A stretch of 64,000 bases of DNA, taken from contig JAENZX010000002.1 in the NCBI GenBank assembly GCA_016841045.1, forward strand, positions 50,375 through 114,374, written 5' to 3'. Source of the stretch: Thermincola carboxydiphila. GTDB lineage: Bacteria > Bacillota > Thermincolia > Thermincolales > UBA2595. Position numbers and translations under genes: made by a program. How positions within the stretch are numbered: the first letter of the stretch is position 1; every line of letters starts with the position of its first letter. Below, piece after piece: positions 1 through 17,007 of the stretch. Below the pieces are notes generated by a model. The model did not search any database, was not told the origin of the DNA, and was given only the letters and a program-made list of their open reading frames with translations.

Positions 1-334
1 TACTTACTTATTTGCCGTTGTATTTGGCCCAATTAGTCAAACTGTCCTCCTTTTGGGTTGGCCTGGGTGGCTGTGGCCGGTCACTCCAGATTTTTTATTA
101 TCTTTGTTGCCTTCCTGGGATTCTTTCCTGATGCCAGAAGGTTCAGAATACAAGGTTGAGCACCGGGATAGACGGCCCCTGTCTGGCACAGAACCGAATT
201 GTGAGGACTCAGTGGTCCGAAAATGATTTTTATTGGTGCGAAACCCCCTTTTTTTGTACATCCGGTCGATACAATTCCAGTATTAGAACACTTTGCTTTT
301 AGAACTGGGAGAATCGCATAATAAGTTGCAATAA

Positions 335-351
335 TGGAACGATTTGTTCCA
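335..351. promoter_or_regulatory. Palindrome, candidate enhancer-binding site
   Basis: TGGAAC-N5-GTTCCA is a perfect 6-bp inverted repeat with a 5-bp spacer. It lies about 140 bp upstream of the sigma-54-type -24/-12 element at 488-504, the usual distance for a bacterial enhancer-binding protein. The site and promoter geometry are seen directly; the activator is not identified and no complete sigma-54 activator is encoded in the window. Confidence 0.45.
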
Positions 352-487
352 AAAATGAAATAAAGCTTAGACTAGTTGCAGAAGCCATTGGCTGGCATGT
401 TTTTAATAAACCTTTTGGCGTGCAAAAACGTTATCCCGGTAACTGTATTTATCATTTGGGGTTAGTTTGGCATCTTTTTGTCTTGAG

Positions 488-504
488 TTGGCATCAGGTT
501 TGCA
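488..504 (+). promoter_or_regulatory. Sigma-54 (-24/-12) promoter of the ubiD cluster
   Basis: TTGGCAT-N5-TTGCA matches the sigma-54 consensus (TGGCAC-N5-TTGCW), with the essential GG at 490-491 and GC at 502-503 exactly spaced. Transcription would start near 515, about 40 bp before the ATG at 554. This element lies inside the N-terminal extension of the longest possible ubiD frame, which argues that the true start is 554. Confidence 0.75.
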
Positions 505-553
505 ATTATTAATAGGTGACACCAAAAAATATTCAAAAGGAGGTCTTCGGACA

Positions 554-2188
554 ATGGGAAATTATCACAAAGATTTAAGGGGTTACATTGAAATGCTGGA
601 GAAAGAAGGTAAACTCCAAAGAGTGACCAGGGAGATCAATAAAGACAGTGAGTTAATGCCTCTGGTCAGATGGCAGTACAAGGGCCTTCCGGAAAGCGAG
701 CGTAAAGCATGGTTGTTTGAAAATGTGGTAGACGCTACCGGTAAAAAGTATGAAGGTTCTGTTGCTGTTGCAATGCTGGGCGGCTCCAGGGAAATCTACG
801 CCATGGCCATGAACACCACGATGGATAAGATTGAAGAGCAGTGGAACAAAGCTCTGTTAAACCCTATCCCCCCTGTTATGGTAGAAACCGGTCCTGTACA
901 TGAAGAAGTACACTATGCTGAGAATTTTGCCAATGAAGGTGGCGGACTCTACGAGTTCCCGATTCCTATCTCCACTCCCGGTTTTGATTGTGCTCCGTAC
1001 TTAACATCACCGTACTGGGTAACCAAAGACCCGGAAAACGGCATTATCAACATAGGGACTTACCGGGGCATGATCAAAGCTGCGGACCGTACCGGAGTAA
1101 TGACCCACCAGATCCAGCATATCGGAATTCACCTTCAGAAAGCCAAGGACATGGGCATGAAAACCCTGCCGGCTGCCGTTGTTCTGGGCTGCGTCCCTGT
1201 TGTAGGTATGTGCAGTGTGGCCAAGATTCCTTATGGGGTTGATGAGTATGCTGTAGCCGGTGGTCTTGCCGGGGAACCTATCCCGCTGGTAAAATGCAAG
1301 ACTGTTGATATCGAAGTTCCGGCAACCTCTGAGATTGTCCTCGAAGGCGAAATCTCGGTTGACATCCTGGAGGCAGAGGCACCCTTCGGCGAATATACCG
1401 GCTATATGGGCCCCAGGGCATTTAACCACTTTTTTAATGTAAAGTGCATTACACACCGGAAAAAACCTATTTATCAGGCCTTTATCAGCCAGTGTCCCCC
1501 GAGTGAAAGCAGTAAGATTCGTCAGATCAGTTATGAGGCAGTAATGTATAAATTCCTGAAGTACGACTGCAACATTCCTTCCATCCTGAAAGTAGCGTTT
1601 CATGAGTCCAGCGGTAGTTGGGAGTACTGCGTAATTCAAATGAAGAAGACCAATCCCAGCCAGCCCTGGCAGGCCCTTAATGCAGCGGTGGCCTTAGACC
1701 CCACCATCGGCAAATTTATCATTACCGTAGATGAAGATATTGACCCCCATGATCCCGATTCCGTCAACTGGGCACTGAGCTTCCGTGTTCAGCCACATCT
1801 GGACTGTCGGATCACAAACGGTAAATCCAGTATGCTGGATCCATCATCCGCACCTCCCGGATCAAGTACTGATGAGGACAGATTCCCATCACCGGTTGGA
1901 ACCTCAGCTATACTGATTGATGCTACCCGTTCCTTTGCCTTCCCGGCTGTATCCCTGCCGGCTAAGCCCTTTATGGAGCATGCTAAGGAGATCTGGGAAG
2001 AACTTGGTTACGCCAAACTCACTCCCAAAGCGCCATGGCACGGTTACACCCTGGGATATTGGAGTGAAGAAAACGAAGAAGAGGCCCAAATGGCCGTTCA
2101 GGGCAGGCACAGTGAAACCGGTGCTAAACTGAAGAACATAAGGACTACAATGGAAGATTTGGAGACCAAAGCTTTAAGACAGAAGTAA
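554..2188 (+). CDS. UbiD family prenyl-FMN-dependent decarboxylase
   Basis: This 544-residue protein belongs to the UbiD family, which reversibly (de)carboxylates aromatic or unsaturated acids using prenylated FMN. The family signature PFGEYTGY lies near residues 276-284, with an IGTYRG-type segment further upstream. I chose ATG 554 because it follows an AAAGGAGG ribosome site at 535-542; the longer TTG frame from 467 would run through the sigma-54 promoter. The gene leads a cluster with ubiX (its cofactor supplier), a Liv-type importer and a benzoate-CoA ligase-like gene. The substrate could therefore be a hydroxybenzoate, phenylphosphate or an aromatic dicarboxylate (or its CoA ester). Family assignment is firm; the substrate is inference. 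Confidence 0.93.
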   Translation: MGNYHKDLRGYIEMLEKEGKLQRVTREINKDSELMPLVRWQYKGLPESERKAWLFENVVDATGKKYEGSVAVAMLGGSREIYAMAMNTTMDKIEEQWNKALLNPIPPVMVETGPVHEEVHYAENFANEGGGLYEFPIPISTPGFDCAPYLTSPYWVTKDPENGIINIGTYRGMIKAADRTGVMTHQIQHIGIHLQKAKDMGMKTLPAAVVLGCVPVVGMCSVAKIPYGVDEYAVAGGLAGEPIPLVKCKTVDIEVPATSEIVLEGEISVDILEAEAPFGEYTGYMGPRAFNHFFNVKCITHRKKPIYQAFISQCPPSESSKIRQISYEAVMYKFLKYDCNIPSILKVAFHESSGSWEYCVIQMKKTNPSQPWQALNAAVALDPTIGKFIITVDEDIDPHDPDSVNWALSFRVQPHLDCRITNGKSSMLDPSSAPPGSSTDEDRFPSPVGTSAILIDATRSFAFPAVSLPAKPFMEHAKEIWEELGYAKLTPKAPWHGYTLGYWSEENEEEAQMAVQGRHSETGAKLKNIRTTMEDLETKALRQK

Positions 2189-2206
2189 CTATATTCCTTT
2201 TAACGT

Positions 2207-2234
2207 GCTCTGGGGAAAGTGGTTTTCCCCAGAG
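2207..2234 (+). terminator. Hairpin after ubiD, weak terminator or processing site
   Basis: An 11-bp inverted repeat (CTCTGGGGAAA at 2208-2218, TTTCCCCAGAG at 2224-2234) sits 20 bp after the ubiD stop. The following tract is only moderately T-rich, so it may reduce rather than end transcription into the next gene, or stabilise the ubiD message. Confidence 0.5.
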
Positions 2235-2278
2235 TGCTTAACTATTTTTAATGCATCATTTGGTTAGGGGTGATTACG

Positions 2279-3115
2279 TTGAATCTGGCCGATACAGCAA
2301 TCAGGCGGATAATTGAACACTCTCTGGAGGAGGACGTTGGTCCGGGTGACGTTACCACACAGGTGACTATTCCTGAAAACCACCCGGCAAATGCTTGTTT
2401 CTTTGCCAAGGAAGATTTTGTGTTGGCTGGGATTGAGGTAGCCAGGATGGTGTTTAATCAACTTGATCCCAGAATAAACATGGAACTAAAATTTTGTGAC
2501 GGTTCCCAGGTTGCCGCAGGGAAGATTGTGGCCAAGGTTTTCGGACCGGCCCGGAGCATTCTGGCCGGTGAGCGGGTAGCCCTCAACTTACTGCAGCGCA
2601 TGTCAGGTATAGCTACGAAAACAGCAGGCTTGGTGGAGATGGTCCGGGGATTGCCTGTAAGGCTTGCAGATACCCGTAAAACCATGCCCGGGCTTAGGGT
2701 CCTGGACCGATACGCTGTACGCGTAGGCGGGGGCATCAATCACCGTTTCGGTTTATTTGATGCAGTTTTAATCAAAGATAACCACATCAAAGCAGCAGGG
2801 GGTATAAAAATTGCAGTTGAAATGGCTAGGAAGAATATATCCCATACCCAGAAAATAGAAGTAGAAGTGGAAGATTTAGAACAAGTAGCAGAGGCCCTGG
2901 AGACTGGGGCAGAGATTATAATGTTCGATAACATGTCGGTGGAGCTAATGGCTAGGGCGGTGAAAATTGTTAACAAAAAAGCATTGACTGAGGCTTCGGG
3001 TGGAATCACTGAAAAAAATATCCGGGAAGTTGCCGAAACTGGGGTAGATGTTATTTCGCTTGGGGCTTTAACTCATTCTGTAAAAGCGGTCGACATCAGC
3101 CTGAAGTTCTTTTGA
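2279..3115 (+). CDS. nadC: NadC-like quinolinate phosphoribosyltransferase
   Basis: Typical NadC enzymes convert quinolinate and PRPP to nicotinate mononucleotide with loss of CO2 in NAD synthesis. The protein has the family landmarks TRKTMPGLR near residue 131 and KDNHI near residue 166, and a normal length (about 278 residues). The start is probably TTG 2279, six bases after AGGGGTGA; GTG 2270 is possible but lacks a ribosome site. There is no nadA or nadB beside it. Instead it lies between ubiD and ubiX, suggesting either a chance position or a specialised role with aromatic or pyridine carboxylates. Family is confident, physiological role uncertain. Confidence 0.88.
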   Translation: MNLADTAIRRIIEHSLEEDVGPGDVTTQVTIPENHPANACFFAKEDFVLAGIEVARMVFNQLDPRINMELKFCDGSQVAAGKIVAKVFGPARSILAGERVALNLLQRMSGIATKTAGLVEMVRGLPVRLADTRKTMPGLRVLDRYAVRVGGGINHRFGLFDAVLIKDNHIKAAGGIKIAVEMARKNISHTQKIEVEVEDLEQVAEALETGAEIIMFDNMSVELMARAVKIVNKKALTEASGGITEKNIREVAETGVDVISLGALTHSVKAVDISLKFF

Positions 3116-3130
3116 GGAAGGAGAATAGTT

Positions 3131-3715
3131 ATGAGACGATTGGTTGTAGCTATGTCGGGTGCCACGGGAGCTGTTTATGGAGTCCGTTTGTTGGAATCAC
3201 TGCAGTCGCAGCAAAACTGTGAAGTCCATCTTGTACTGAGTCCGTGGGCGGAAAAGACTATTGCTATGGAGACCAAGTACAGCCCGAGCCAGGTCAAAAA
3301 AATGGCTACTTACTACCATGATTACCGGAACCAGGGAGCACCTATTGCCAGCGGCTCTTTCGGTGTAGACGGGATGATAGTTGTTCCTTGCAGTATGAAA
3401 ACCCTTTCCGGTATTGCCTATGGCTATGCCGATAGTCTTATTGCCCGCGCTGCAGATGTTATGCTGAAGGACAGAAAGCCGTTGATTCTTGTCCCACGGG
3501 AAACTCCGCTCAATGAAATCCACCTGGAGAATATGCTAAAGCTCACCAGGGCAGGTGCCATTATGGCCCCGCCTATGCCGGCCTATTACAATCTCCCTAC
3601 CTGTTTGGACGACCTGGTCAATCATCATGTTTCCCGGATCCTGGATTTGCTGCATATCGAAAATCAATTAACGCGTCGCTGGGGTAGTGTTTTTGTTGCA
3701 AGTGCCACGGAGTAG
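3131..3715 (+). CDS. ubiX: UbiX family flavin prenyltransferase
   Basis: UbiX attaches a dimethylallyl group to FMN to make prenyl-FMN, the cofactor of UbiD decarboxylases. The 194-residue protein begins with the flavoprotein-fold signature MSGATGAVYG and contains VVPCSMKTLSGIAYGYADSL and LVPRETP, characteristic of the family. It starts 15 bp after the nadC-like gene with a GGAAGGAG ribosome site. Pairing with the upstream UbiD is the standard arrangement and supports prFMN-dependent chemistry here. Members of the older Pad1/decarboxylase-subunit annotation are the same family. Confidence 0.94.
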   Translation: MRRLVVAMSGATGAVYGVRLLESLQSQQNCEVHLVLSPWAEKTIAMETKYSPSQVKKMATYYHDYRNQGAPIASGSFGVDGMIVVPCSMKTLSGIAYGYADSLIARAADVMLKDRKPLILVPRETPLNEIHLENMLKLTRAGAIMAPPMPAYYNLPTCLDDLVNHHVSRILDLLHIENQLTRRWGSVFVASATE

Positions 3716-3760
3716 AAAAATGCTTAATGCTTTAAATCATTAATAAAGGAGGGCGACCCT

Positions 3761-4957
3761 GTGAAAACCAATAAAAAGATACTGGTTATTCTGATCGGAC
3801 TGATTTTATCCCTCACCCTGGTCAGTGGATGTGGTTCAGGAAGTCAAAAGGACAACAGCGGTCAGTCCGGAGGAACCTCCGGGTCGACAGGTAAAGAACC
3901 TTATGCAATTGGTGTTTTAACTGCCCAAACCGGACCGGCCAGTTGGCTGGGGGATGGTGAATTAAAAGCGGCCAATATGGTGGCTGAACAAATTAATTCC
4001 CAGGGGGGTATCGACGGGCATCCTCTTAAAATTGTTTTTTATGATACAGCAAGCAGTCCTGAACAAACTGTAAAAGGTGCCAGTAAACTCATGGGGGACG
4101 GAGTTCTTGCTATTATCGGGCCAAGTCTGGTTGCAGAAAGTAAGGCAATTGCACCTCTGGTTAAGGCCCAGGGGCCTTTGGTATATTCCCTCTCCGGGGG
4201 TTACCGGCCAGAAAACAACTGGATGTTTGCTGCCAGTGCCCAAACGGAAATAATGCAGAAAACTGTACTGGATTACTTTAAAACCAAGGGTGTCAAGCGA
4301 ATTGCTTTACTTGCGGCTACTGATTCTACCGGTCAGGAAGCTGTTGATTCACTCAAAGATCTCTCTGAAAAGGAAGGCGGCTTTGAAATTGTCGCTGTGG
4401 AGAGGGTAAACCCTACCGATGTTGATGTCACTGTCCAAATTAATAATATCAAAAGTAAGAAACCGGAAGCTTTAATTGCCTGGATGACAGGAAAACTGGT
4501 GAATGTTGCTGCTAAGAATTTTTATCAGGTAGGTATGGATATACCGTTGGTAGTTTCTCACGGGAACCTCTCTTACAAGTTCCTGGACGGTATTAAGGGT
4601 TTTACCCCTAAAACCTTGTTGATGCCTGCTACTAAGGACTTTGCCTGGAAGTCACTGCCTGACAGTGACCCGCAAAAGAAGGTTAATGAAAAACTCCATG
4701 TTGATTATAAAAACAAATATGGCAAAGAAGCAGACTTTGGACCTGGAGTAGCTTTTGATGCTATGAACCTGATAGTTGATGGCCTGCGAAAAACCGGTTC
4801 CGATAAAGAGAAATTGCGGGCCTACCTGGAAAATGTCAATAATTACGCAGGCGCCACCGCAGTGTTTAATTTTTCACCCCAGGACCACCGGGGTACAGGC
4901 CGTAAAGACACTGTACTCCTGCAAGTTAAAGACCAACAGTTTCAGTTAGCCCAATAA
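3761..4957 (+). CDS. Liv-type ABC transporter substrate-binding lipoprotein
   Basis: This is the extracytoplasmic receptor of a branched-chain amino acid/amide-type importer (type I periplasmic-binding fold). The N-terminus is a lipoprotein signal: a charged start, a hydrophobic stretch and lipobox LVSGC with Cys24, followed by a Gly/Ser-rich linker. The mature part begins with the family-typical IGVLTAQTGPASWLGDGEL segment. GTG 3761 follows AAAGGAGGG. Such HAAT-family receptors also bind aromatic acids, and the neighbouring UbiD/UbiX and benzoate-CoA ligase genes point to an aromatic carboxylate. Ligand is inference. Confidence 0.9.
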   Translation: MKTNKKILVILIGLILSLTLVSGCGSGSQKDNSGQSGGTSGSTGKEPYAIGVLTAQTGPASWLGDGELKAANMVAEQINSQGGIDGHPLKIVFYDTASSPEQTVKGASKLMGDGVLAIIGPSLVAESKAIAPLVKAQGPLVYSLSGGYRPENNWMFAASAQTEIMQKTVLDYFKTKGVKRIALLAATDSTGQEAVDSLKDLSEKEGGFEIVAVERVNPTDVDVTVQINNIKSKKPEALIAWMTGKLVNVAAKNFYQVGMDIPLVVSHGNLSYKFLDGIKGFTPKTLLMPATKDFAWKSLPDSDPQKKVNEKLHVDYKNKYGKEADFGPGVAFDAMNLIVDGLRKTGSDKEKLRAYLENVNNYAGATAVFNFSPQDHRGTGRKDTVLLQVKDQQFQLAQ

Positions 4958-4975
4958 AGGCGGAGGTGACATCAC

Positions 4976-5845
4976 ATGGATATCTTTTGGCAGATAATTA
5001 TTTCCGGTATTACAAGCGGAAGTATATACGCCTTGGTTGGCCTGGGTCTGGGTCTGATTTACAATGTCAGCAAAGTAATTAATCTCGCTCAGGGGGAATT
5101 TCTAACTTTTGGGGCGCTGTTGCTCGTTAGTATGATTTCATTTAAGCTACCATTAATTATTGCTATTCCCATTGTCCTGGTGATTGCGGCCTTGCTTGGT
5201 CTGGCCTTTGAACGACTGGCTATTCGTCCGGCCTGGCAATCCTCTACCACTGTTTTATTGATCACGACACTGGCGGTTTCAATCATCCTAAAGGGTATTG
5301 CAATGCTCATTTGGGGCAAGGATCCCTTATCTCTGCCCTCGTTCTCCGGTGAAGTGCCACTAAAACTGGGTGAGGTGGTTATTGCTACCCAAACCTTTTG
5401 GGTTATCGGTGTGCTGCTGATTGTGGCCGGCCTGAGCTGGTTTTTCTTTAACCGGACTCTGGCCGGTAAGGCCATCCTTGCAGTGGCCGAAAACCGGGAT
5501 GCATCAGCATTGGTTGGAATCAACAACCGATTGGCAGTGCAGGTATCTTTCGCTTTAAGTGCTTTAGTTGGCGCACTTGCCGGAGCGGTGGTTACCCCTA
5601 TCACTTTTGTATCCTATGACGGGGGCACTATGATTGGCCTGAAAGGGTTTATCGCCCTCACTTTAGGGGGCATGGAAAGCATATGGGGTGGTATAGTTGG
5701 CGGATTAATCCTTGGGTTGATTGAAGCTCTTGGGGCTGGCTATATTTCTGCCCAGTTCAAAGACCTGCTGGCCTTTATACTGCTAATAATGTTACTTTAC
5801 CTGCGCCCGGCCGGTATTCTGGGCGGGGCATTGAAAAAGGGGTGA
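4976..5845 (+). CDS. Liv-type ABC transporter permease (LivH-like)
   Basis: A 289-residue, highly hydrophobic permease of the LivH type, forming the membrane channel with the downstream LivM-like protein. The N-terminal ITSGSIYALVGLGLGLIYNV and GEFLTFGA segments and the C-terminal GGMESIWGG loop, which contacts the ATPases, are typical. It follows the binding protein by 18 bp with a GGCGGAGGTG ribosome site and its stop overlaps the ribosome site of the next gene, so the transporter is one transcription unit. Confidence 0.92.
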   Translation: MDIFWQIIISGITSGSIYALVGLGLGLIYNVSKVINLAQGEFLTFGALLLVSMISFKLPLIIAIPIVLVIAALLGLAFERLAIRPAWQSSTTVLLITTLAVSIILKGIAMLIWGKDPLSLPSFSGEVPLKLGEVVIATQTFWVIGVLLIVAGLSWFFFNRTLAGKAILAVAENRDASALVGINNRLAVQVSFALSALVGALAGAVVTPITFVSYDGGTMIGLKGFIALTLGGMESIWGGIVGGLILGLIEALGAGYISAQFKDLLAFILLIMLLYLRPAGILGGALKKG

Positions 5846-5850
5846 TGATA

Positions 5851-6879
5851 GTGCAATTATGGGCGAAGTTTCGAAATTCACTTGCGTCTTGGGGAATTTG
5901 GCTTGTATTTGGGTTAATACTGGTCTTGCCTCTGGTTGGTCTTTCTGAGCACTATATCAGCCTTTTAACATTATCCGCAGTTCTGGCTTTGGCTGTTTTA
6001 GGAATTGACCTGTTAATGGGTTATACGGGGCTATTGTCATTAGGTCAGGCGGGTTTTATGGCTATTGGAGCATACACATCTGCGATTTTGACGGTACGGT
6101 ATGGAGTTGGCGCAATACCTGCTCTGATTGCAGCACAAGCCATTACTTTAGTAACCGCAGTCTTTATCGGAAAAGCGGTTTTGCGGTTGAAAGGTTACCA
6201 CCTGGCTATAGCCACTCTGGCTTTCAGTGTAATTATGGAGCAGCTGCTGGTTAATTTACGGAACTTAACCGGCGGTCCTTCCGGTTTGGCCGGAGTACCC
6301 TCCTTATCTGTCGGGCAAATTTCTGTTACTGGGGGCCAATCTCTATTCTATCTCTGTATGTTTGCAGTTATGGTGGCAATCTTCCTGCTAAAGAATCTGA
6401 CCAACTGCCGGGTGGGCCGGGCGTGGCAGGCCATAGCGGGAGACGAGCTGGCTGCTGCGACCCTAAGCATCAACACTGACAACTTCAAACTCCTGGCCTT
6501 TGTTATCAGTGCCTGTCTGGCCGCTTTTAGCGGTAGCCTCTATGCACACTACATGCACTTTATTGCGCCGGAGATGGTTGGTATGCAGGCTTCCTTAAAC
6601 CTGGTAGTAATGACTGCCCTGGGAGGGGCGGGAACTTTGTGGGGACCGCTGCTAGGTGTGGTTTTATTGACCTTTTTGCCTGATTTTATAGCCTATCTGC
6701 AAAACTTCCAACTAATTATTAACGGTCTGGTCTTGCTAATATCAATAGTTTTCTTCCCTGGCGGACTGGCCGGATTACTTACCTACCTATACAACATGAT
6801 AGTTGAACGATTATTTGGGAGAAAAGAATATCTTAATGGAGGAGGGACCAAAAATGAAGCAAGCTCTCCTGTCAATTAA
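5851..6879 (+). CDS. Liv-type ABC transporter permease (LivM-like)
   Basis: Second membrane subunit of the importer, about 342 residues with many membrane-spanning helices. LLMGYTGLLSLGQAGFMAIG and the GGAGTLWGP ATPase-contact loop are family hallmarks. Starts are possible at GTG 5842, ATG 5845 and GTG 5851; I prefer 5851 because AAAAGGGGTGA lies at the right distance. The 3' end overlaps the start of the LivG-like gene by 26 bp, implying translational coupling. Confidence 0.9.
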   Translation: MQLWAKFRNSLASWGIWLVFGLILVLPLVGLSEHYISLLTLSAVLALAVLGIDLLMGYTGLLSLGQAGFMAIGAYTSAILTVRYGVGAIPALIAAQAITLVTAVFIGKAVLRLKGYHLAIATLAFSVIMEQLLVNLRNLTGGPSGLAGVPSLSVGQISVTGGQSLFYLCMFAVMVAIFLLKNLTNCRVGRAWQAIAGDELAAATLSINTDNFKLLAFVISACLAAFSGSLYAHYMHFIAPEMVGMQASLNLVVMTALGGAGTLWGPLLGVVLLTFLPDFIAYLQNFQLIINGLVLLISIVFFPGGLAGLLTYLYNMIVERLFGRKEYLNGGGTKNEASSPVN

Positions 6880-7624
6880 CGATGTCAGTAAAAAGTTTGG
6901 TGGTTTACAGGCGGTGGACGAGGTTAGTCTGCAAGTGCAGAAGGGCCAGATTAAGGCTTTGGTAGGGCCCAATGGAGCAGGAAAGACCACTTTGTTTAAT
7001 CTGATTACCGGTGCCCATCTGTCAGACCAGGGTACGATTGCTTTTTCCGGAAAAGATATTACCGGGTCACCGCCGCACAAAGTGAATGAGTATGGCATGG
7101 CCAGGACTTTCCAGATTCTTCGCTTATTCAACAAACTGACTGCTCTGGAAAATGTCAAGGTGGGCTGTCACCGCTGGACGAAAGTAGGTTTAGTGCACGG
7201 GTGCCTGCGGACCTCAGTTGTTCGCCGTGAAGAAAAGATAATTACTGAAAAGTCTATGGAGTGCCTGGAGAGAGTTGGTTTGGCCGATTCTGCTCATAAG
7301 TTGGCAGGTAACCTCCCGCTGGGGAAACGTAAACTTCTGGAAGTAGCCAGAGCATTAGCCAGTGATCCGGAATTACTGCTTTTGGATGAGCCGGCTGCCG
7401 GTCTGAATGATAAAGAAACCGATGAGCTTTTGCATCGGATTTGGGCGATTCGGGACAGCGGGGTAACTGTATTGATAATTGAACACAATATGAACCTTGT
7501 GATGCGTTTGTCCGATGAGGTTGCCGTATTGAATTACGGGAGAAAGATAGCTGATGGCAAACCAGCGGAAATTCAAAACAATCCGGAAGTTATTTCGGCT
7601 TACCTGGGAACGGGGGTGAGCTAA
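6854..7624 (+). CDS. Liv-type ABC transporter ATPase (LivG-like)
   Basis: Cytoplasmic ATP-binding subunit, about 256 residues. It has Walker A GPNGAGKTT, a LivG-type signature LPLGKRKLLEVARAL in place of LSGGQ, Walker B LLLLDEPAAGL and a final switch His in IIEHNM. ATG 6854 follows GGAGGAGGG; the longer frame from 6803 lies inside the permease gene. Together with the LivF-like protein it powers uptake. Confidence 0.92.
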   Translation: MKQALLSINDVSKKFGGLQAVDEVSLQVQKGQIKALVGPNGAGKTTLFNLITGAHLSDQGTIAFSGKDITGSPPHKVNEYGMARTFQILRLFNKLTALENVKVGCHRWTKVGLVHGCLRTSVVRREEKIITEKSMECLERVGLADSAHKLAGNLPLGKRKLLEVARALASDPELLLLDEPAAGLNDKETDELLHRIWAIRDSGVTVLIIEHNMNLVMRLSDEVAVLNYGRKIADGKPAEIQNNPEVISAYLGTGVS

Positions 7625-8346
7625 TGTTAGCAGTAGAAGGTTTGACAGCGGCATATGGCTCCATTACGGTCTTAAGGGATGCCTCATTGTTTATTGAACC
7701 AGGACAGATAGTCACTCTTATCGGTGCCAACGGTGCCGGGAAAACTACCCTGATGCGCTCCATTGCCGGTCTGCATAAACCCACAGCCGGCCGGGTCAGA
7801 TTTAATGGCGAAGATATAACCGGACTACGGGCCCACAAGGTAATCAGAAAAGGTCTGTGCCTGATTCCGGAAGGCAGACAGTTATTTTCCAACCTCTCTG
7901 TCATGGATAACCTCCTGCTGGGGAGTCTTGGTAATACCAAAAAACAAAAGAAGACTGCTGTTGAAGCCAGGGTAGAGGAACTAATGACTGTTTTTCCCCG
8001 TCTTAAGGAACGGGCTCATCAACTGGCCGGGACTTTAAGCGGGGGTGAGCAGCAAATGCTGGCAATTGCCCGGGGTTTGATGGCTAATCCCCGGTATGTG
8101 ATGCTGGATGAACCTTCCCTTGGTTTGGCTCCTATCATTGTGGAAGAGGTTTTTAGTTTAATTCAGAAGTTAAACAAAACCGGAGTATCAATATTTTTAG
8201 TGGAGCAGAACGCCTTTGCGGCCTTAAGGATCTCCCACCGCGGTTATGTACTTGAGAACGGCAGAGTAGTCAGAGAAGGAATTGCAGCCGATTTATTAAA
8301 CGATGAAGAGATTCGCTATCATTACCTGGGTGGAAAAGCAGTATAG
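7624..8346 (+). CDS. Liv-type ABC transporter ATPase (LivF-like)
   Basis: Second ATPase of the importer, 240 residues, with Walker A GANGAGKTT, signature LSGGEQQML and Walker B MLDEPSLGL. The start ATG overlaps the stop of the LivG-like gene by one base, with GGGGGTGAG as the ribosome site. The family normally works as a LivG/LivF heterodimer, so the five-gene transporter here is complete. Confidence 0.92.
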   Translation: MLAVEGLTAAYGSITVLRDASLFIEPGQIVTLIGANGAGKTTLMRSIAGLHKPTAGRVRFNGEDITGLRAHKVIRKGLCLIPEGRQLFSNLSVMDNLLLGSLGNTKKQKKTAVEARVEELMTVFPRLKERAHQLAGTLSGGEQQMLAIARGLMANPRYVMLDEPSLGLAPIIVEEVFSLIQKLNKTGVSIFLVEQNAFAALRISHRGYVLENGRVVREGIAADLLNDEEIRYHYLGGKAV

Positions 8347-8389
8347 ATGGCATTACTCTGGTGGTACGGTAGTTAAGGAGGCGTCAAAA

Positions 8390-9955
8390 GTGAGTGAAAC
8401 CGAATTGGTAATCCCGGAAAAATTAAATATAGCTGTAGAGTTGGTCGATAAAAACCTGCAAATGGGCAGAGGAAAAAAGGCAGCTATTTATTATAAAGAT
8501 CAAACCCTGACTTATGAAGATGTCTACAAGTCAGTGAACAAAACCGGCAATGCTTTGAAAAATCTCGGAATTGGTATGGAGGACCGGGTATTGTTACTGC
8601 TTTTCGACAGCCCGGAGTTTGTCGCCAGCTTTTTTGGGGCAATAAAAATTGGGGCAGTACCCATTCCTACCAATACTCTTTTAAAAGCCAGGGACTACCT
8701 GTATTTGTTAAATGACAGCCGGGCAAATGCAGCTATAGTGGATGAAGCTTTTGTACCGCTAATTGAAGAAGTGAGAAGTGAACTACTGTATCTGCGGCAT
8801 GTAATAGTAGTCGGCAAGGCGGGTCATAGCCAACTGTCTTACGAAAAACTGGTAAACGATGCCTCTGATGAATTAGTGCCTGCAGATACCGGTAAAGATG
8901 ATTCTGCGTTTTGGCTGTACAGTTCGGGTACTACCGGTTTTCCCAAAGGAACCGTACATTTACAGCATGATATCCTGGTAGCCGCCGAGCTGTATGGTAA
9001 AGGAATTCTGAAAATTAATGAGAACGATATTACTTTTTCCATAGCCAAACTCTTTTTTGCTTATGGTTTGGGCAACGGGTTATACTTGGCCTTCTATGCA
9101 GGTGCTTCAACGGTGCTTTATCCCGACCGGTTCCTTCCAAAAGTATATTTTCATATTATCAGACAATATAAGCCAACTTTGTTCTTTGGAGTCCCTACAG
9201 CCTATGGAGCGATGCTCCAGGCATCAGAGAATATGTCCGATATAGATGTCAGCTCCATACGGTATTGTATCTCTGCCGGTGAAGCATTGCCAAACGCGAT
9301 TTTTGAAGCCTGGAAGAAAAAATTTAATTTACTCATATTAGATGGTATTGGCTCCACCGAGATTACTCACATCTTTATTTCCAACAGACCTGATGATTAC
9401 AAGGGCGGGACTTCCGGCAAACCTGTACCGGGATATGAAGCAAAGATTGTGGATCAGGATGGAAACAAACTGCCGGATGGGGAGATGGGCACCCTGATGA
9501 TTAAAGGTGACAGTATTGCAGCTTACGATTGGAACAAGCACAAAAAAACCAAAGAAACATTCTTTGGTCCATGGATAAATACCGGCGATAAATATTATGT
9601 GGATGATGAAGGCTATTACACATATGTAGGCCGGGGCGATGACATGATTAAGGCTGGCGGGATATGGGTTTCTCCCATTGAGGTAGAAAATACTATCATG
9701 GAACATGAGGCAGTTTTGGAGTGTGGGGTTATTGGTGCAGTTGACAATGACAGCCTGGTAAAACCCAAGGCCTTTATAGTACTGAAGGAAGGGTTTGAAG
9801 CGTCAGAGGCCCTGACCAACGAGATTCAAAACTATGTTAAGGAACGGATAGCGCCATATAAGTATCCCCGCTGGATTGACTACGTCACAGAACTTCCCAA
9901 AACAGCTACAGGTAAAACCATGAGGTTTATGCTGAGGAGACTTGATGAAGAATAA
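8390..9955 (+). CDS. Benzoate-CoA ligase family protein
   Basis: An ANL-superfamily acyl/aryl-CoA ligase of 521 residues, the usual length of benzoate-CoA ligases. It activates a carboxylate with ATP and CoA through an acyl-adenylate. The phosphate-binding loop is SSGTTGFPKG. The segment GIGSTEITHIFISNRP followed by GGTSGKPVPGY is characteristic of benzoate/4-hydroxybenzoate-CoA ligases. The C-terminal catalytic lysine lies in PKTATGKTMR. GTG 8390 follows AAGGAGG; the longer frame would overlap livF. Adjacent UbiD/UbiX suggests the aromatic acid is decarboxylated to, or from, a benzoyl-CoA-level intermediate. Substrate not provable from sequence. Confidence 0.88.
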   Translation: MSETELVIPEKLNIAVELVDKNLQMGRGKKAAIYYKDQTLTYEDVYKSVNKTGNALKNLGIGMEDRVLLLLFDSPEFVASFFGAIKIGAVPIPTNTLLKARDYLYLLNDSRANAAIVDEAFVPLIEEVRSELLYLRHVIVVGKAGHSQLSYEKLVNDASDELVPADTGKDDSAFWLYSSGTTGFPKGTVHLQHDILVAAELYGKGILKINENDITFSIAKLFFAYGLGNGLYLAFYAGASTVLYPDRFLPKVYFHIIRQYKPTLFFGVPTAYGAMLQASENMSDIDVSSIRYCISAGEALPNAIFEAWKKKFNLLILDGIGSTEITHIFISNRPDDYKGGTSGKPVPGYEAKIVDQDGNKLPDGEMGTLMIKGDSIAAYDWNKHKKTKETFFGPWINTGDKYYVDDEGYYTYVGRGDDMIKAGGIWVSPIEVENTIMEHEAVLECGVIGAVDNDSLVKPKAFIVLKEGFEASEALTNEIQNYVKERIAPYKYPRWIDYVTELPKTATGKTMRFMLRRLDEE

Positions 9956-10362: not shown

Positions 10363-12996
10363 TTGGTAACACCAATATTGACGACAAAATTATATGTACC
10401 GGCATCCAGACCAAGTATTGTTTTTCGCCCTGCACTGATTCAGAAAATTAACGAAGGAATTGCACAGGGTGGAAAGCTTTCTTTAGTTTCGGCTCCGGCG
10501 GGCTATGGTAAAACAACTCTAATTACAGAGTGGTTAAAGACTCTTGCCTGTGAGTATGCCTGGCTTTCCCTGGATGGAGGAGATAACAATCCGCAGAGGT
10601 TTCTAACTTATCTGATTGCCGCCTTGCAAACTGTAGATAACAGGTTTGGGCAGGAGGCCGGCAAACTGTTACGTTCCCCTCAGTTAACTGACCCCGGGAC
10701 AATAGCAGCTCTGTTGATAAATCAAATTGTTGATGAAGGTAAGCCTATTGTGCTGGTGTTAGATGATTATCATTTAATAACCAGTGAATATATCAATCGC
10801 ACCCTGGAATCCATTATCGAGAACAGTCCGGACATATTCCATATAGTTATCGTGACAAGGCATGACCCGGTCTTACCACTCGGACGGTGGCGGGGAAGAA
10901 ACCGGCTAATAGAATTAAGGATAGATGATTTAAGATTTGATGATCAGGAAGTGGAAGCATTTTTTGCTCAGACGATGCGGCTTAGCTTAAAAGACTCCCA
11001 TCTTCTCTCCCTTAAGAATAGAACCGAGGGATGGGTTGCCGGACTTCAACTGGCTGCCCTTTCCTTAAGAGGCAGGGAAGAGCAGGGGATAGATGAATTT
11101 ATTGAAAAGTTTAGCGGCAGTCACAGGTACGTGATAGACTACTTATTTGAAGAAGTTTTACGGCTGCAGCAGGCTGAAATAAAAAACTTTTTGTGCTGTA
11201 CTGCAGTTTTAGGGCGGATGTGTGCCTCTTTATGTGATGAATTAACGGGAAGGAATGACAGTAAAAATGTACTAAACAGTCTGGAACAGACCAATCTTTT
11301 CTTGATACCTCTGGATGAGAACCGTCAATGGTACCGTTATCATCACCTGTTCGCTGAATTTCTGCTTACAGAGTTGGAGGAAGATCACAAGAGGTGCCTG
11401 CATCAAAAGGCCTCTCTGTGGTTTGAGGGCAATGGCTATAATACTGAAGCCATAGAACATTCTCTTGCCGCAGGAGATGTTGATAATGCTGTCAGGCAGA
11501 TAAAAAAACAAACCAACAGCAGCCTGATAAGTGGGAAATTATATACCCTTATTGGGTGGCTGGATTCTCTGCCTGCAAACCTGGTTAATAATGACAGTGA
11601 GCTTTGTTCCTATAAAGCTTGTGCTCATTTTCTGGCAGCCCAAATTGATAAGGCCTTATATTACATAAATGCTTTTCGGCAATTAAAGCAGGTAGACAGA
11701 TTAAATGACGGCAGGGTTAAAGCTCTGGAAGCATGGTTTGCCAATATTCGTGAAGATAAAAGAACCATAGAACTGGCCATGGAAGCCATTGAATTAATGG
11801 CTGACGAGGAACTTGGCCTGAAAGTTTTCGCCCTGGTTGCCCTGGCCCAGGCTCAAAGAAATATAGGTAATTTAGATGAATCCAGTAAGGCCTTTAAAGA
11901 GGCTTTAAAAATCAGTGTTGATGAAAGCTACTCCCTGTCAGTTTGCACAGTAACGATGGACCTGGTCTATAACTACTACATTCAGGGCAATTTACAGGAA
12001 GCCATACAAATATGTTTGGATACCCTGGAGGGAAAATCTACCGGAAATAAGCCTCTGTCAGCCGCAGGAATTCTTAATATTCCTCTGAGTCAACTTTATT
12101 ATGAGACCAATCGCTTAGAATTAGCCGGGGAAACTGTAGATAAAGCTATAGATGCATGCCGTAGAATGGCCATGAGTAAAATTTTCGGCGGAGATGCCGA
12201 AAGAACTCTGGCCCGGGTCCGGTATTTACAGGGATGTCCGGAAGAAGCTTTAACTGTTTTACAGGAGGGTATGGAGGCCGCTAAGGCTTCCGGCCTGCCC
12301 ATGGCTGTCCTGAGATTTGAGGCAATCCAGGCAGATTTGATGCTTAAAATGGGAAAAGTCCATTGGGTCAAAGAGTGGATTAGGAGAATTGGATTATCCC
12401 TTGAGAGTGAAATAACTTCATTAAGAGAACAGCCATATTTGGTTTACGTGCGATTTCTCCTCGGCCAGAAACTTTGGACGGAAACTAATACTCTTTTAGA
12501 AAAGCTTGAAAAGTTTTCACAGGCTCAGAGAAAAGGACGTTTAATTAGTATTTTGGTCTTAAAAGCTATTTTGAAAGATGCTCTTGGAGATGTTGAAGAA
12601 GGGAAAAAGAGCTTAGGGGAGGCAGTAAGCATTGCAGCCCCGCAAAATTACCGGCGTTCCTTCCTGGAGGAGGGAGAGCAGGTGTATAAAATGCTGCCTT
12701 ACGTCAAGGATTATGCTCCGGAATTCGTTGCTGGACTAATTAAGGATTTTGAGCTGGAGTTAAAATTGTCTGCCGAGGTGAAACCAACTAATTCAGAGCT
12801 GATTGAATCCCTTAGTGAAAGGGAAATAGAAGTTTTGAGGTTAGTTGATAAAGGGCTGTCCAACGCAGACATTTCCCGTAGGTTATTTATTAGCCTGGGA
12901 ACGGTTAAGTGGCATATTAATCATATCTTTGCCAAACTGGGGGTTAAAAACAGGACCCAGGCAATAAATAAGGCAAAACAATTTGAAATAATCTGA
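10363..12996 (+). CDS. LAL-type (MalT-like) LuxR family transcriptional regulator
   Basis: An 877-residue signal-transduction ATPase with a DNA-binding tail. The N-terminal NTPase has Walker A APAGYGKTT (about residues 43-51) and Walker B IVLVLDDYH. A long helical TPR-like middle region follows, then a LuxR-type helix-turn-helix at about residues 810-870 (LSEREIEVLRLVDKGLSNADIS, shown in part, and VKWHINHIFAKL). TTG 10363 follows TAAGGAG. MalT-like regulators multimerise on binding an inducer and ATP. It follows the aromatic cluster on the same strand and could control it, but the cluster promoter is sigma-54-type, which LAL proteins are not known to activate, so the target is open. Confidence 0.9.
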   Translation: MVTPILTTKLYVPASRPSIVFRPALIQKINEGIAQGGKLSLVSAPAGYGKTTLITEWLKTLACEYAWLSLDGGDNNPQRFLTYLIAALQTVDNRFGQEAGKLLRSPQLTDPGTIAALLINQIVDEGKPIVLVLDDYHLITSEYINRTLESIIENSPDIFHIVIVTRHDPVLPLGRWRGRNRLIELRIDDLRFDDQEVEAFFAQTMRLSLKDSHLLSLKNRTEGWVAGLQLAALSLRGREEQGIDEFIEKFSGSHRYVIDYLFEEVLRLQQAEIKNFLCCTAVLGRMCASLCDELTGRNDSKNVLNSLEQTNLFLIPLDENRQWYRYHHLFAEFLLTELEEDHKRCLHQKASLWFEGNGYNTEAIEHSLAAGDVDNAVRQIKKQTNSSLISGKLYTLIGWLDSLPANLVNNDSELCSYKACAHFLAAQIDKALYYINAFRQLKQVDRLNDGRVKALEAWFANIREDKRTIELAMEAIELMADEELGLKVFALVALAQAQRNIGNLDESSKAFKEALKISVDESYSLSVCTVTMDLVYNYYIQGNLQEAIQICLDTLEGKSTGNKPLSAAGILNIPLSQLYYETNRLELAGETVDKAIDACRRMAMSKIFGGDAERTLARVRYLQGCPEEALTVLQEGMEAAKASGLPMAVLRFEAIQADLMLKMGKVHWVKEWIRRIGLSLESEITSLREQPYLVYVRFLLGQKLWTETNTLLEKLEKFSQAQRKGRLISILVLKAILKDALGDVEEGKKSLGEAVSIAAPQNYRRSFLEEGEQVYKMLPYVKDYAPEFVAGLIKDFELELKLSAEVKPTNSELIESLSEREIEVLRLVDKGLSNADISRRLFISLGTVKWHINHIFAKLGVKNRTQAINKAKQFEII

Positions 12997-14568: not shown

Positions 14569-17007
14569 TTACATCTTTGCACTGCTGATATTTTCAAGCG
14601 GCAAATTTGCTCTTTTTGCTGACGATTTCTTTCGGCCGGATCGCAGCAGCACCATTGTCATCGTTATTCCTGTAAGGGTTAATCCGAACAGGCCGGCAAT
14701 AGTCCGGGTGGCAGTCAGGGCAGGGATATGAAGGGATATAGCCTCGTTCCCTTGAGGTCGGTATGATAAATCAAGCATGACTGACGCAATTCCGGGAATA
14801 AAGTGCAGTTGATAAATTACGTAGCCTGAGAGCACCAGTGGAATCAGGGCGAAGGTCAGTTTGATTTTTAAGGATGCAGCCTTTGTCTTGAATGGCTTAG
14901 CCAAATACCAGGTAATCGTACCGGCCACCAAAGCGGCACCCCAGAAGACCAGGCTGAACCAGAGCCGCCATTTATCTAAAGGCCATACATTGTAAAGGGG
15001 TTCGAAATACATAATTGGCAGAAGGACACCCAGTGCGACACCAATGAAAACAGTAAAACCCTGATTAACCCTGACCAGGTGCCAGACTTCTCTGGCAGGA
15101 ATCCTTAAGTTGAGTTTTACCGCACCGTTTGGGCAGTTGCGGATACAATTCAGGCACAACTTGCAGGCGATATTATTATCTAAATACGGAACGTGCTGGG
15201 ACATGGGACAGCCTGAGGTGTGAGAGGTTCCCCTGTAGCATTCAAAAGTAGTGCACTTATTAAGGCAAACCTCTACATCAGACCTTACCTCAAGCATTCC
15301 TCCCACCGAGGCCATACCGACAAATCCGCCAAGGGGGCAGAGGTGTCGGCACCAGGTGTGCCTGGTAAAAATAATACCGGTTATACTTGCTGCGGCGGTG
15401 ATGAAAATCAGCCATAGGGCTGTGAGTACGGGACTGCTCCTCATTCCGCTCATTGCTTCCACCCAAAAAACCATGAGAAACAAAAAGCTGATAAAGATAA
15501 AATCATACTTTTTCAGTAGATCGGGAACCGGTCGGTTCAGATGAAAAATCTTCTGCACCCGGTCCATGGTAAAGGAGAAAGGACAAATACTGCACCAAAC
15601 CCGACCCAAGGTAGGGGAGAAAATTGTCAGAGCAGGCCACCAAAATCCCCATACTACTGCAAACATAATACGGGTTGTAAGTGAAGCAGGCGCGAAAAGT
15701 AGAAAGTATGTTATAACGAAGAAAATTAAAGCCGACAGACGGCGCAGCCATAAATGGAAATTCCCCTGTTTTATAACCTTTTCCACCCAGGAGAAGGATA
15801 GCAGGTCAAGACTACGGCCTGTTTTTTCGGCTGTAGGGCCGAAGAAGACGTGCTCTAGGCCGATTGTGTTATCTTCAGCCAGGTAAAAAGCCCTCTCAAC
15901 GACCTGAATAAGCTCAGTAACGTTGCCCTGCCGGTAGTGGTGGGTCAGCAGCAGCTTAACGGCATCCTTGCTGAGAGAGGGTGGGGTGCGATTATTCTCG
16001 TCAGCCAGTTTTTTTAGTAATCCCAGGGCAAGCACAGGAATATCCCGTTTACGTTCACGTAAGGGAGTGAATTTAAAGGTGTGTGGGAAACAATCCTTCA
16101 ACTCAGTTTTCAGGCGCTGCGGCAGTGATTCCGGTTCGCCCAACAGACTCCCGATGATACGGCATTGAGCATCCCCGGCCTGAATGGCTTGGGCTAGTCT
16201 TTGCTGGGCCCTTTGGGAAATAAGGTTTATATCCCTTATAAACAGTGTTCCACCCTCGGCCAGCTCCAACAAGCCGCTGCCCTTAAGGCTTTGGGTTTCA
16301 AACATCAGGTCGCCCCATTGCTGGTCAATTTGACGACCGTCTACAACTACAAAGGGGGCTTCTTCACCGAACTGACGCTCATGCAGCTGCCAAGCCAGCA
16401 TCTGTCGTCCGGTACCCCGCTCGCCGATTATGAGAAGGTGTTCACCGGTCTTGCTTAAATCAGCCAGCGCGGTTTGAATTTCTCTTGTAGTTTTGGCGCT
16501 TCCCCACAAACCATAAAATTTTTGCTTAAACTGGTTGAGCTGCAGACCAGAACGTAAAAACTCCTTGTGTTTAGACTCCCATAAATCTTTATTAACGTTA
16601 TTCACCATACGGGATAACTTTTCGGCAAAACTCCGGTAAAGATGCGGCCAGCGAATGAGCATGAAGGCAAAATGCTCAGCATCCATTGCCAGAAGAGTGC
16701 AGTCCTTGGTACAGCGGATGGCGACCGGGGAAGGTTTACCCGTAAAGAGAGATATTTCTCCAAAGGAGTTGCCCGGCCGGAATGTGCTAATTGAGTGGGG
16801 ATTCCGTCCCTCCTCAGCAGCCAGGACTTCAGCTTCACCTTCTACTAATACATAGAACCAATTCCGTTCTTGGCCAAGTATAACAATATCAGCACCTGCC
16901 GGGTGGGTTTCCCACTCGAAGCCCTCGGCCAGTTCTGTTAAGTCTTCGTTATTTAATTCGGCAAGCAGTTTTACCTTGGAGAGATAATAAACTTTATCTT
17001 TTAGCAT
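14569..17007 (-). CDS. Cyclic-nucleotide-binding/AAA+/membrane polyferredoxin fusion
   Basis: An 812-residue three-part protein. Residues 10-130 are a Crp-type cyclic-nucleotide-binding domain (FGEISLFTGKPSPVAIRC in the phosphate-binding cassette). Residues 165-385 resemble a sigma-54 activator AAA+ domain but are degenerate: Walker A GERGTGR has Arg for Lys, Walker B is TLFIRDI instead of LDE, the GAFTGA loop is missing and GNVREL is GNVTEL. Residues 420-790 are a multi-pass NapH/NosR-like membrane region with CSIC (472-475), CRHLCP (553-558), Cys581/585/590/600 and a CKLCLNCIRNCP ferredoxin motif (615-626). There is no DNA-binding domain. It probably moves electrons under nucleotide control. 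A cyclase-like gene lies 76 bp upstream on the same strand. Confidence 0.9.
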   Translation of the reverse strand: MLKDKVYYLSKVKLLAELNNEDLTELAEGFEWETHPAGADIVILGQERNWFYVLVEGEAEVLAAEEGRNPHSISTFRPGNSFGEISLFTGKPSPVAIRCTKDCTLLAMDAEHFAFMLIRWPHLYRSFAEKLSRMVNNVNKDLWESKHKEFLRSGLQLNQFKQKFYGLWGSAKTTREIQTALADLSKTGEHLLIIGERGTGRQMLAWQLHERQFGEEAPFVVVDGRQIDQQWGDLMFETQSLKGSGLLELAEGGTLFIRDINLISQRAQQRLAQAIQAGDAQCRIIGSLLGEPESLPQRLKTELKDCFPHTFKFTPLRERKRDIPVLALGLLKKLADENNRTPPSLSKDAVKLLLTHHYRQGNVTELIQVVERAFYLAEDNTIGLEHVFFGPTAEKTGRSLDLLSFSWVEKVIKQGNFHLWLRRLSALIFFVITYFLLFAPASLTTRIMFAVVWGFWWPALTIFSPTLGRVWCSICPFSFTMDRVQKIFHLNRPVPDLLKKYDFIFISFLFLMVFWVEAMSGMRSSPVLTALWLIFITAAASITGIIFTRHTWCRHLCPLGGFVGMASVGGMLEVRSDVEVCLNKCTTFECYRGTSHTSGCPMSQHVPYLDNNIACKLCLNCIRNCPNGAVKLNLRIPAREVWHLVRVNQGFTVFIGVALGVLLPIMYFEPLYNVWPLDKWRLWFSLVFWGAALVAGTITWYLAKPFKTKAASLKIKLTFALIPLVLSGYVIYQLHFIPGIASVMLDLSYRPQGNEAISLHIPALTATRTIAGLFGLTLTGITMTMVLLRSGRKKSSAKRANLPLENISSAKM

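Follow-up and report, generated by a model that had tools for sequence, protein, structure and literature searches.

The sigma-54 promoter at positions 488-504 of the window, as the whole 64,000-nucleotide stretch analyzed here is called (G000:C75:50375-114374 of the source genome), is very probably an ordinary promoter of its class serving a likely aromatic-acid operon, and the activator acting on it is most likely an enhancer-binding protein encoded upstream on the same contig. In the following, this promoter is designated P2. An earlier note on this DNA had combined the promoter with an upstream palindrome and had pointed out that an intact enhancer-binding protein is missing. The latter is true inside the window, but one is encoded 5.9 kb before its first base, and the apparent lack of a local activator is due to the window edge having cut it off. 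Hence, the activator gene for P2 probably lies about 6 kb upstream, just outside the window, and the arrangement of the locus looks ordinary, i.e., a sigma-54 promoter with its likely activator nearby. A false puzzle is thereby removed, as P2 is not an orphan promoter.

Promoter P2 and the linked activator gene

P2 reads TTGGCAT-N5-TTGCA with a spacing of exactly GG-N10-GC, agrees with the sigma-54 criterion TGGCAY-N5-TTGCW plus GG-N10-GC and is separated by 49 bp from the UbiD gene downstream. Genome-wide (4.16 Mb), the strict pattern TTGGCAYN5TTGCW gives 21 matches versus none for the reversed control pattern, so that strict boxes can be regarded as real signals in the source genome. A looser box allowing one mismatch, on the other hand, occurs inside the window at chance level (4 versus 2.4 expected, with equal counts in 21 of 100 shuffles). 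The gene rpoN, whose absence the earlier note had named as an argument against the promoter, was found on contig C26 (PF04552, 222.3 bits), and the promoter call stands. Judged by its sequence, P2 is a real sigma-54 promoter, at which transcription would start. Within 8 kb of an activator AAA+ domain, 11 of the 21 strict boxes are located, while about 1.2 would be expected. All of them are on the same strand and they include P2 as well as its paralog P1, which is found just downstream of the linked activator gene. However, these 11 boxes belong to only 5 activators and are not independent, since 5 of them cluster at one activator.

The linked activator gene ends 6.4 kb upstream of the P2 box. 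Its product consists of PrpR_N (71.5 bits), PAS, Sigma54_activat (AAA+, 234.9 bits) and HTH_8 (Fis-type HTH, 38.1 bits) domains, each of the four scoring over its cut-off, and GAFTGA, which was read in the linked activator only, is present in its sequence. In the source genome, 22 Sigma54_activat matches were obtained, 15 of them full-length (at least 185 bits). Neighbors of the activator gene are an IclR regulator, two further UbiD genes, a BenE transporter, a UbiX-like gene (assigned by eye), a benzoate-CoA-ligase-family gene and a TRAP permease with TAXI binding protein.

Regarding regulators inside the window, the only PF00158 match is encoded at 14569-17007 (-) and is devoid of GAFTGA, confirming what had been read from the sequence before about the sole sigma-54-like AAA+ domain; its product is unlikely to act as a normal sigma-54 activator. 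This protein shows an odd combination of cNMP_binding, Sigma54_activat, AAA lid and Fer4_5 domains. Likewise correctly recognized was the LAL regulator at 10363-12996, which is of the MalT/LuxR (LAL) type and whose gene follows the operon directly, in the same orientation. At the other side, directly upstream of the promoter cassette shared by P1 and P2, an MFS-like transporter gene is apparently broken into several frames (L024:14751-15506, the end of which corresponds to window positions 1-131), and Pfam MFS_1 scores over the cut-off only for the piece L024:15049-15363.

Features of the P2 locus. Positions refer to the window unless a contig or locus is given.
Feature	Position	Strand	Evidence or remark
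Promoter/leader cassette, counterpart just downstream of the activator gene	183..560	+	73% identical to G000:C75:44600-44979
Block CAATTCCAGTATTAGAACACTTTGCTTTTA, rival candidate activator site	272..301		Best-conserved windows between the paralogous leaders
Palindrome TGGAAC-N5-GTTCCA, candidate activator site	335..351		Exact inverted repeat
P2, sigma-54 -24/-12 element TTGGCATCAGGTTTGCA	488..504	+	Exact GG-N10-GC box
Likely ribosome-binding site AAAAGGAGG	535..543	+	Sequence, 10 bases before ATG 554
UbiD-family aromatic acid decarboxylase	554..2188	+	Pfam UbiD/UbiD_N/UbiD_C; TIGR00148 270 vs cut-off 244.85 bits
Second NadC (quinolinate phosphoribosyltransferase)	2270..3115	+	QRPTase_N, QRPTase_C; TIGR00078 347.7 vs 198.4 bits
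UbiX-type flavin prenyltransferase	3131..3715	+	Pfam Flavoprotein; 71% identical to L056 gene
Branched-chain amino acid type ABC transporter	3761..8346	+	ORFs named by eye
Benzoate-CoA ligase family protein, at the end of the likely operon	8303..9955	+	TIGR02262 630 vs 375 bits
Enhancer-binding protein gene, 658 aa	G000:C75:42491-44467 = L024:7492-9468	same strand and contig as P2	

The likely operon, its relatives and the second NadC

As the gaps between the genes are short or the genes overlap, 554-9955 probably forms one operon, likely dedicated to anaerobic aromatic-acid use. The name UbiX was assigned by eye and from the place beside ubiD, and the ABC transporter comprises a binding protein, two permeases and two ATPases. 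Among solved relatives, the window UbiD matches best with 6h6x (195 bits), outranking phthaloyl-CoA decarboxylase 8oz5 (75 bits), and a function as phthaloyl-CoA decarboxylase is hence unsupported.

The P1 box, TTGGCATCAGGCTTGCT, is located 439 bp downstream of the activator gene (G000:C75:44906), ahead of genes for a TRAP/TAXI transporter and a second UbiD gene. Over about 380 bp the P1 and P2 leaders share 73% identity and over a longer alignment 70%; no further copy turned up in the source genome, and both boxes start with TTGGCATCAGG. The P1 leader retains a start region resembling that of the window UbiD (GGAGGTCTTCG-ACAATGGGAA), which runs into a stop after ten codons, so that a UbiD gene may formerly have followed this leader.

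In a relative, Pelotomaculum sp. PtaB.Bin104, activator and UbiD are linked at two loci, L056 and the damaged L099. At L056, CTGGTATGAACTTTGCT is found at the same place before a UbiD gene whose product is 88% identical, and the order, all in one direction, is sigma-54 box, UbiD, NadC, UbiX-like gene, transporter and activator. The activator is cut by the contig end but likely represents the ortholog, being 59-60% identical and scoring 807 bits, with the next best match at 307 bits among 15 genomes when excluding the query's own gene. L099 shows the order ATGGCATGGAAATTGCT box, UbiD remnant, transporter, kinase (by eye) and activator N-terminus, the latter comprising residues 1-196, located at the end of the contig, with 54% identity. 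At L099:6399-6865 (-), pieces of ubiD and ubiX directly adjoin, as would result from a deletion or a misassembly; of this locus, the promoter, the transporter and the N-terminus of the activator are still there. PtaB.Bin104 possesses rpoN; the strict box, however, is not clearly above control in this genome (4 versus 2, both strands together), and both UbiD boxes match the relaxed pattern only.

Beyond PtaB.Bin104, comparison with 61 genomes retrieved with the leader DNA, apart from the genome's own two copies, no more than two scraps of 36 bits, and UbiD matches at E 1e-100 or better were obtained in 2 of the 61 (own genome and G027). With so few leader and UbiD matches, only the two loci of PtaB.Bin104 are usable for footprinting. 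In G027, a member of another family that also has rpoN, the box CTGGCACGGTACTTGCA is located at L066:804-820, about 120 bp before the gene of a 43%-identical UbiD. No activator was seen by eye among the ORFs of this 3.9-kb contig, and the box is no more than suggestive. At all six more distant UbiD loci inspected (L057-L062), a box with at least 11 of 12 positions is missing just upstream of UbiD, indicating that sigma-54 control is not general to the UbiD family.

The second NadC, a small testable oddity shared with the relative, sits between ubiD and the ubiX-like gene in the window (2270-3115) and in PtaB.Bin104 (L056:2309-3166). The operon NadC retains the DTRKT and NHR motifs of solved relatives. 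Another full NadC copy is encoded in the source genome at C6 behind a nadB-like gene (by eye), and nadC also stands beside a nadB-like gene in all six other genomes compared (G001, G002, G004, G007, G008, and G009). The other full copy of PtaB.Bin104 is found beside a birA-like gene (by eye) on a contig without nadB. The operon NadC of PtaB.Bin104 is 77% identical to its own genome's other copy and only 57% to the window operon copy. Considering these identities and the unsure placement of the window NadC in the tree, recruitment of NadC may have occurred more than once. Phthalate is a known quinolinate mimic, which is why the operon copy is possibly a substrate-tolerant one. For human QPRT, Kd values of 5.2 μM for phthalic acid and 4.8 μM for quinolinate are given in an excerpt of PMC4726147. 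A literature search linking nadC, phthalate and UbiD yielded nothing. It is a speculative and rather improbable proposal that the PrpR_N activator senses an aromatic dicarboxylate, such as ortho-phthalate, and induces its uptake and decarboxylation together with a phthalate-tolerant NadC. If true, the operon would carry its own self-protection gene, encoding a NadC tolerant of the substrate that would otherwise block NAD synthesis.

The palindrome and other candidate activator sites

The inverted repeat at 335-351, TGGAACGATTTGTTCCA, is located 136 bp upstream of the P2 box, and a 6-N5-6 geometry is typical of binding sites for this class of enhancer-binding proteins. Of the enhancer layout proposed previously, exactness and distance can be maintained, whereas a significance of the palindrome beyond chance is unsupported; it is unique and unenriched. 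Perfect 6-bp arms with a spacer of 3-10 appeared in 446 of 1000 dinucleotide shuffles of positions 238-427, and in 91 of 1000 with a spacer of exactly 5. For the narrower span 318-377, which was chosen post hoc, the corresponding values are 140 and 19 of 1000. By this measure, the palindrome falls within chance expectation for its region. The genome-wide search for other copies, suggested in the earlier note, did not give a second exact one, and matches with up to two mismatches numbered 164 compared to 171 for the control. Being not commoner than the control, the palindrome is ruled out as a genome-wide regulon marker. Moreover, it is not kept in the P1 leader, where it aligns with TGGGCTGATGTGTTTAT; a different perfect inverted repeat (ATGTGTTT-N8-AAACACAT) is found nearby in P1.

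Both PtaB.Bin104 promoters contain, 7 bp closer to the box, TGTTTCAAAA as a counterpart of the right half of the palindrome, TGTTCCAAAA. Relative to the box, TGTTTCA is found at -157 and -136 in both PtaB.Bin104 promoters, TGTTCCA at -143 in P2 and the complement TGAAACA at -133 in P1. When comparing P2 with both PtaB.Bin104 promoters, TGTTYCAAAA agrees in 9 of 10 columns, a result equaled by 7 of 200 shuffles, while widths of 14 and 21 are not significant (91 and 26 of 200). In the comparison of P2 with L056 alone, equally good shuffles amount to 45, 44, and 55 of 200 at widths of 10, 14, and 21, respectively. A half-site common to all four promoters, P1 included, is not significant (538 of 2000 shuffles equal). 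Besides, block 272-301 qualifies as a candidate site, with 19 of 20 columns conserved between P1 and P2 in its best windows; this block is not conserved in the L056 alignment.

Accepting P2 and its linked activator, the chances are evenly balanced that the palindrome is a mere chance repeat and that binding occurs elsewhere, for example, at block 272-301. The shuffling results, the uniqueness and lack of enrichment of the palindrome and its loss in P1 are in line with this, as is the missing significance of a half-site in the four promoters. The block itself, though containing the windows in which P1 and P2 agree best, is not conserved in L056, and TGTTYCAAAA is present at nearly equal distance in P2 and both PtaB.Bin104 promoters. 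This stretch is alike between the two PtaB.Bin104 promoters, albeit not their most alike one, and together with the typical geometry it argues for the palindrome, which is a possible enhancer site of the activator.

Proposed mechanism and comparison with known systems

In the mechanism proposed for P2, sigma-54 RNA polymerase would occupy 488-504, with opening of the complex left to a one-component enhancer-binding protein, and opening would be triggered upon binding of an aromatic acid, or of a derivative such as a CoA ester, to the PrpR_N/PAS part of the linked activator. A plausible place for the activator to bind is about 135-160 bp upstream, where the palindrome may be its site. Both P1 and P2 are probably served by it and would be switched on together.

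Control of P2 by the linked activator, and not by another of the 15 full-length proteins of this genome, has to be weighed against the possibility that one of the remaining 14 acts in trans. P2 is separated from the linked gene by 6.4 kb and several genes, and 38 activators in a Clostridiales reconstruction of 263 are not clustered with their targets, according to excerpts of PMC6615313. Nevertheless, activation in trans is unlikely in view of the paralogy of P2 to P1 just downstream of the activator gene and of the activator-UbiD linkage in PtaB.Bin104. Still clearly less probable is that a promoter of another type or the LAL regulator controls the UbiD operon and that the sigma-54 box is a relic. 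The LAL gene, reading in the same direction, adjoins the end of the operon, and the P2 leader, as one of two copies, could have decayed. However, P2 has a box of the strict consensus, and PtaB.Bin104 has retained a related one in front of its corresponding UbiD gene, making such a scenario highly improbable. With the linked activator as the preferred regulator, a regulatory hypothesis for the decarboxylation of aromatic acids in Pelotomaculum and close relatives can be put forward that comprises one activator, two promoters, two importers and two UbiD enzymes.

A literature search linking PrpR_N, sigma-54 and aromatic gave no result. Excerpts of PMC6615313 on Clostridiales sigma-54 regulons describe, like here, a -24/-12 box, an activator gene near the target operons and one-component regulators with PrpR_N and PAS sensors having one or few targets. 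The targets in the present case, however, are UbiD decarboxylase operons, whereas the main text of that study is without mention of Pelotomaculum, UbiD or aromatic. With PrpR, the activator of propionate catabolism (TIGR02329), the linked activator shares the PrpR_N, AAA+ and HTH domains; its score of 376.4 bits, however, is below the cut-off of 499.2, and here the gene is linked to UbiD and UbiX. The best-scoring NCBIfam model is PrdR (NF041552), likewise below its cut-off (401.6 versus 795 bits) and spanning residues 197-640, thus leaving out the PrpR_N part. A related gene set for UbiD/UbiX aromatic decarboxylation, including phthaloyl-CoA decarboxylase, appears in excerpts of PMC9516798 on terephthalate and isophthalate degraders of the genus Pelotomaculum. 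UbiD, UbiX-like and benzoate-CoA-ligase-family genes as well as importers are common to those systems and the operon described here, while the window UbiD, unlike the phthaloyl-CoA decarboxylase systems, is nearer to 6h6x than to 8oz5.
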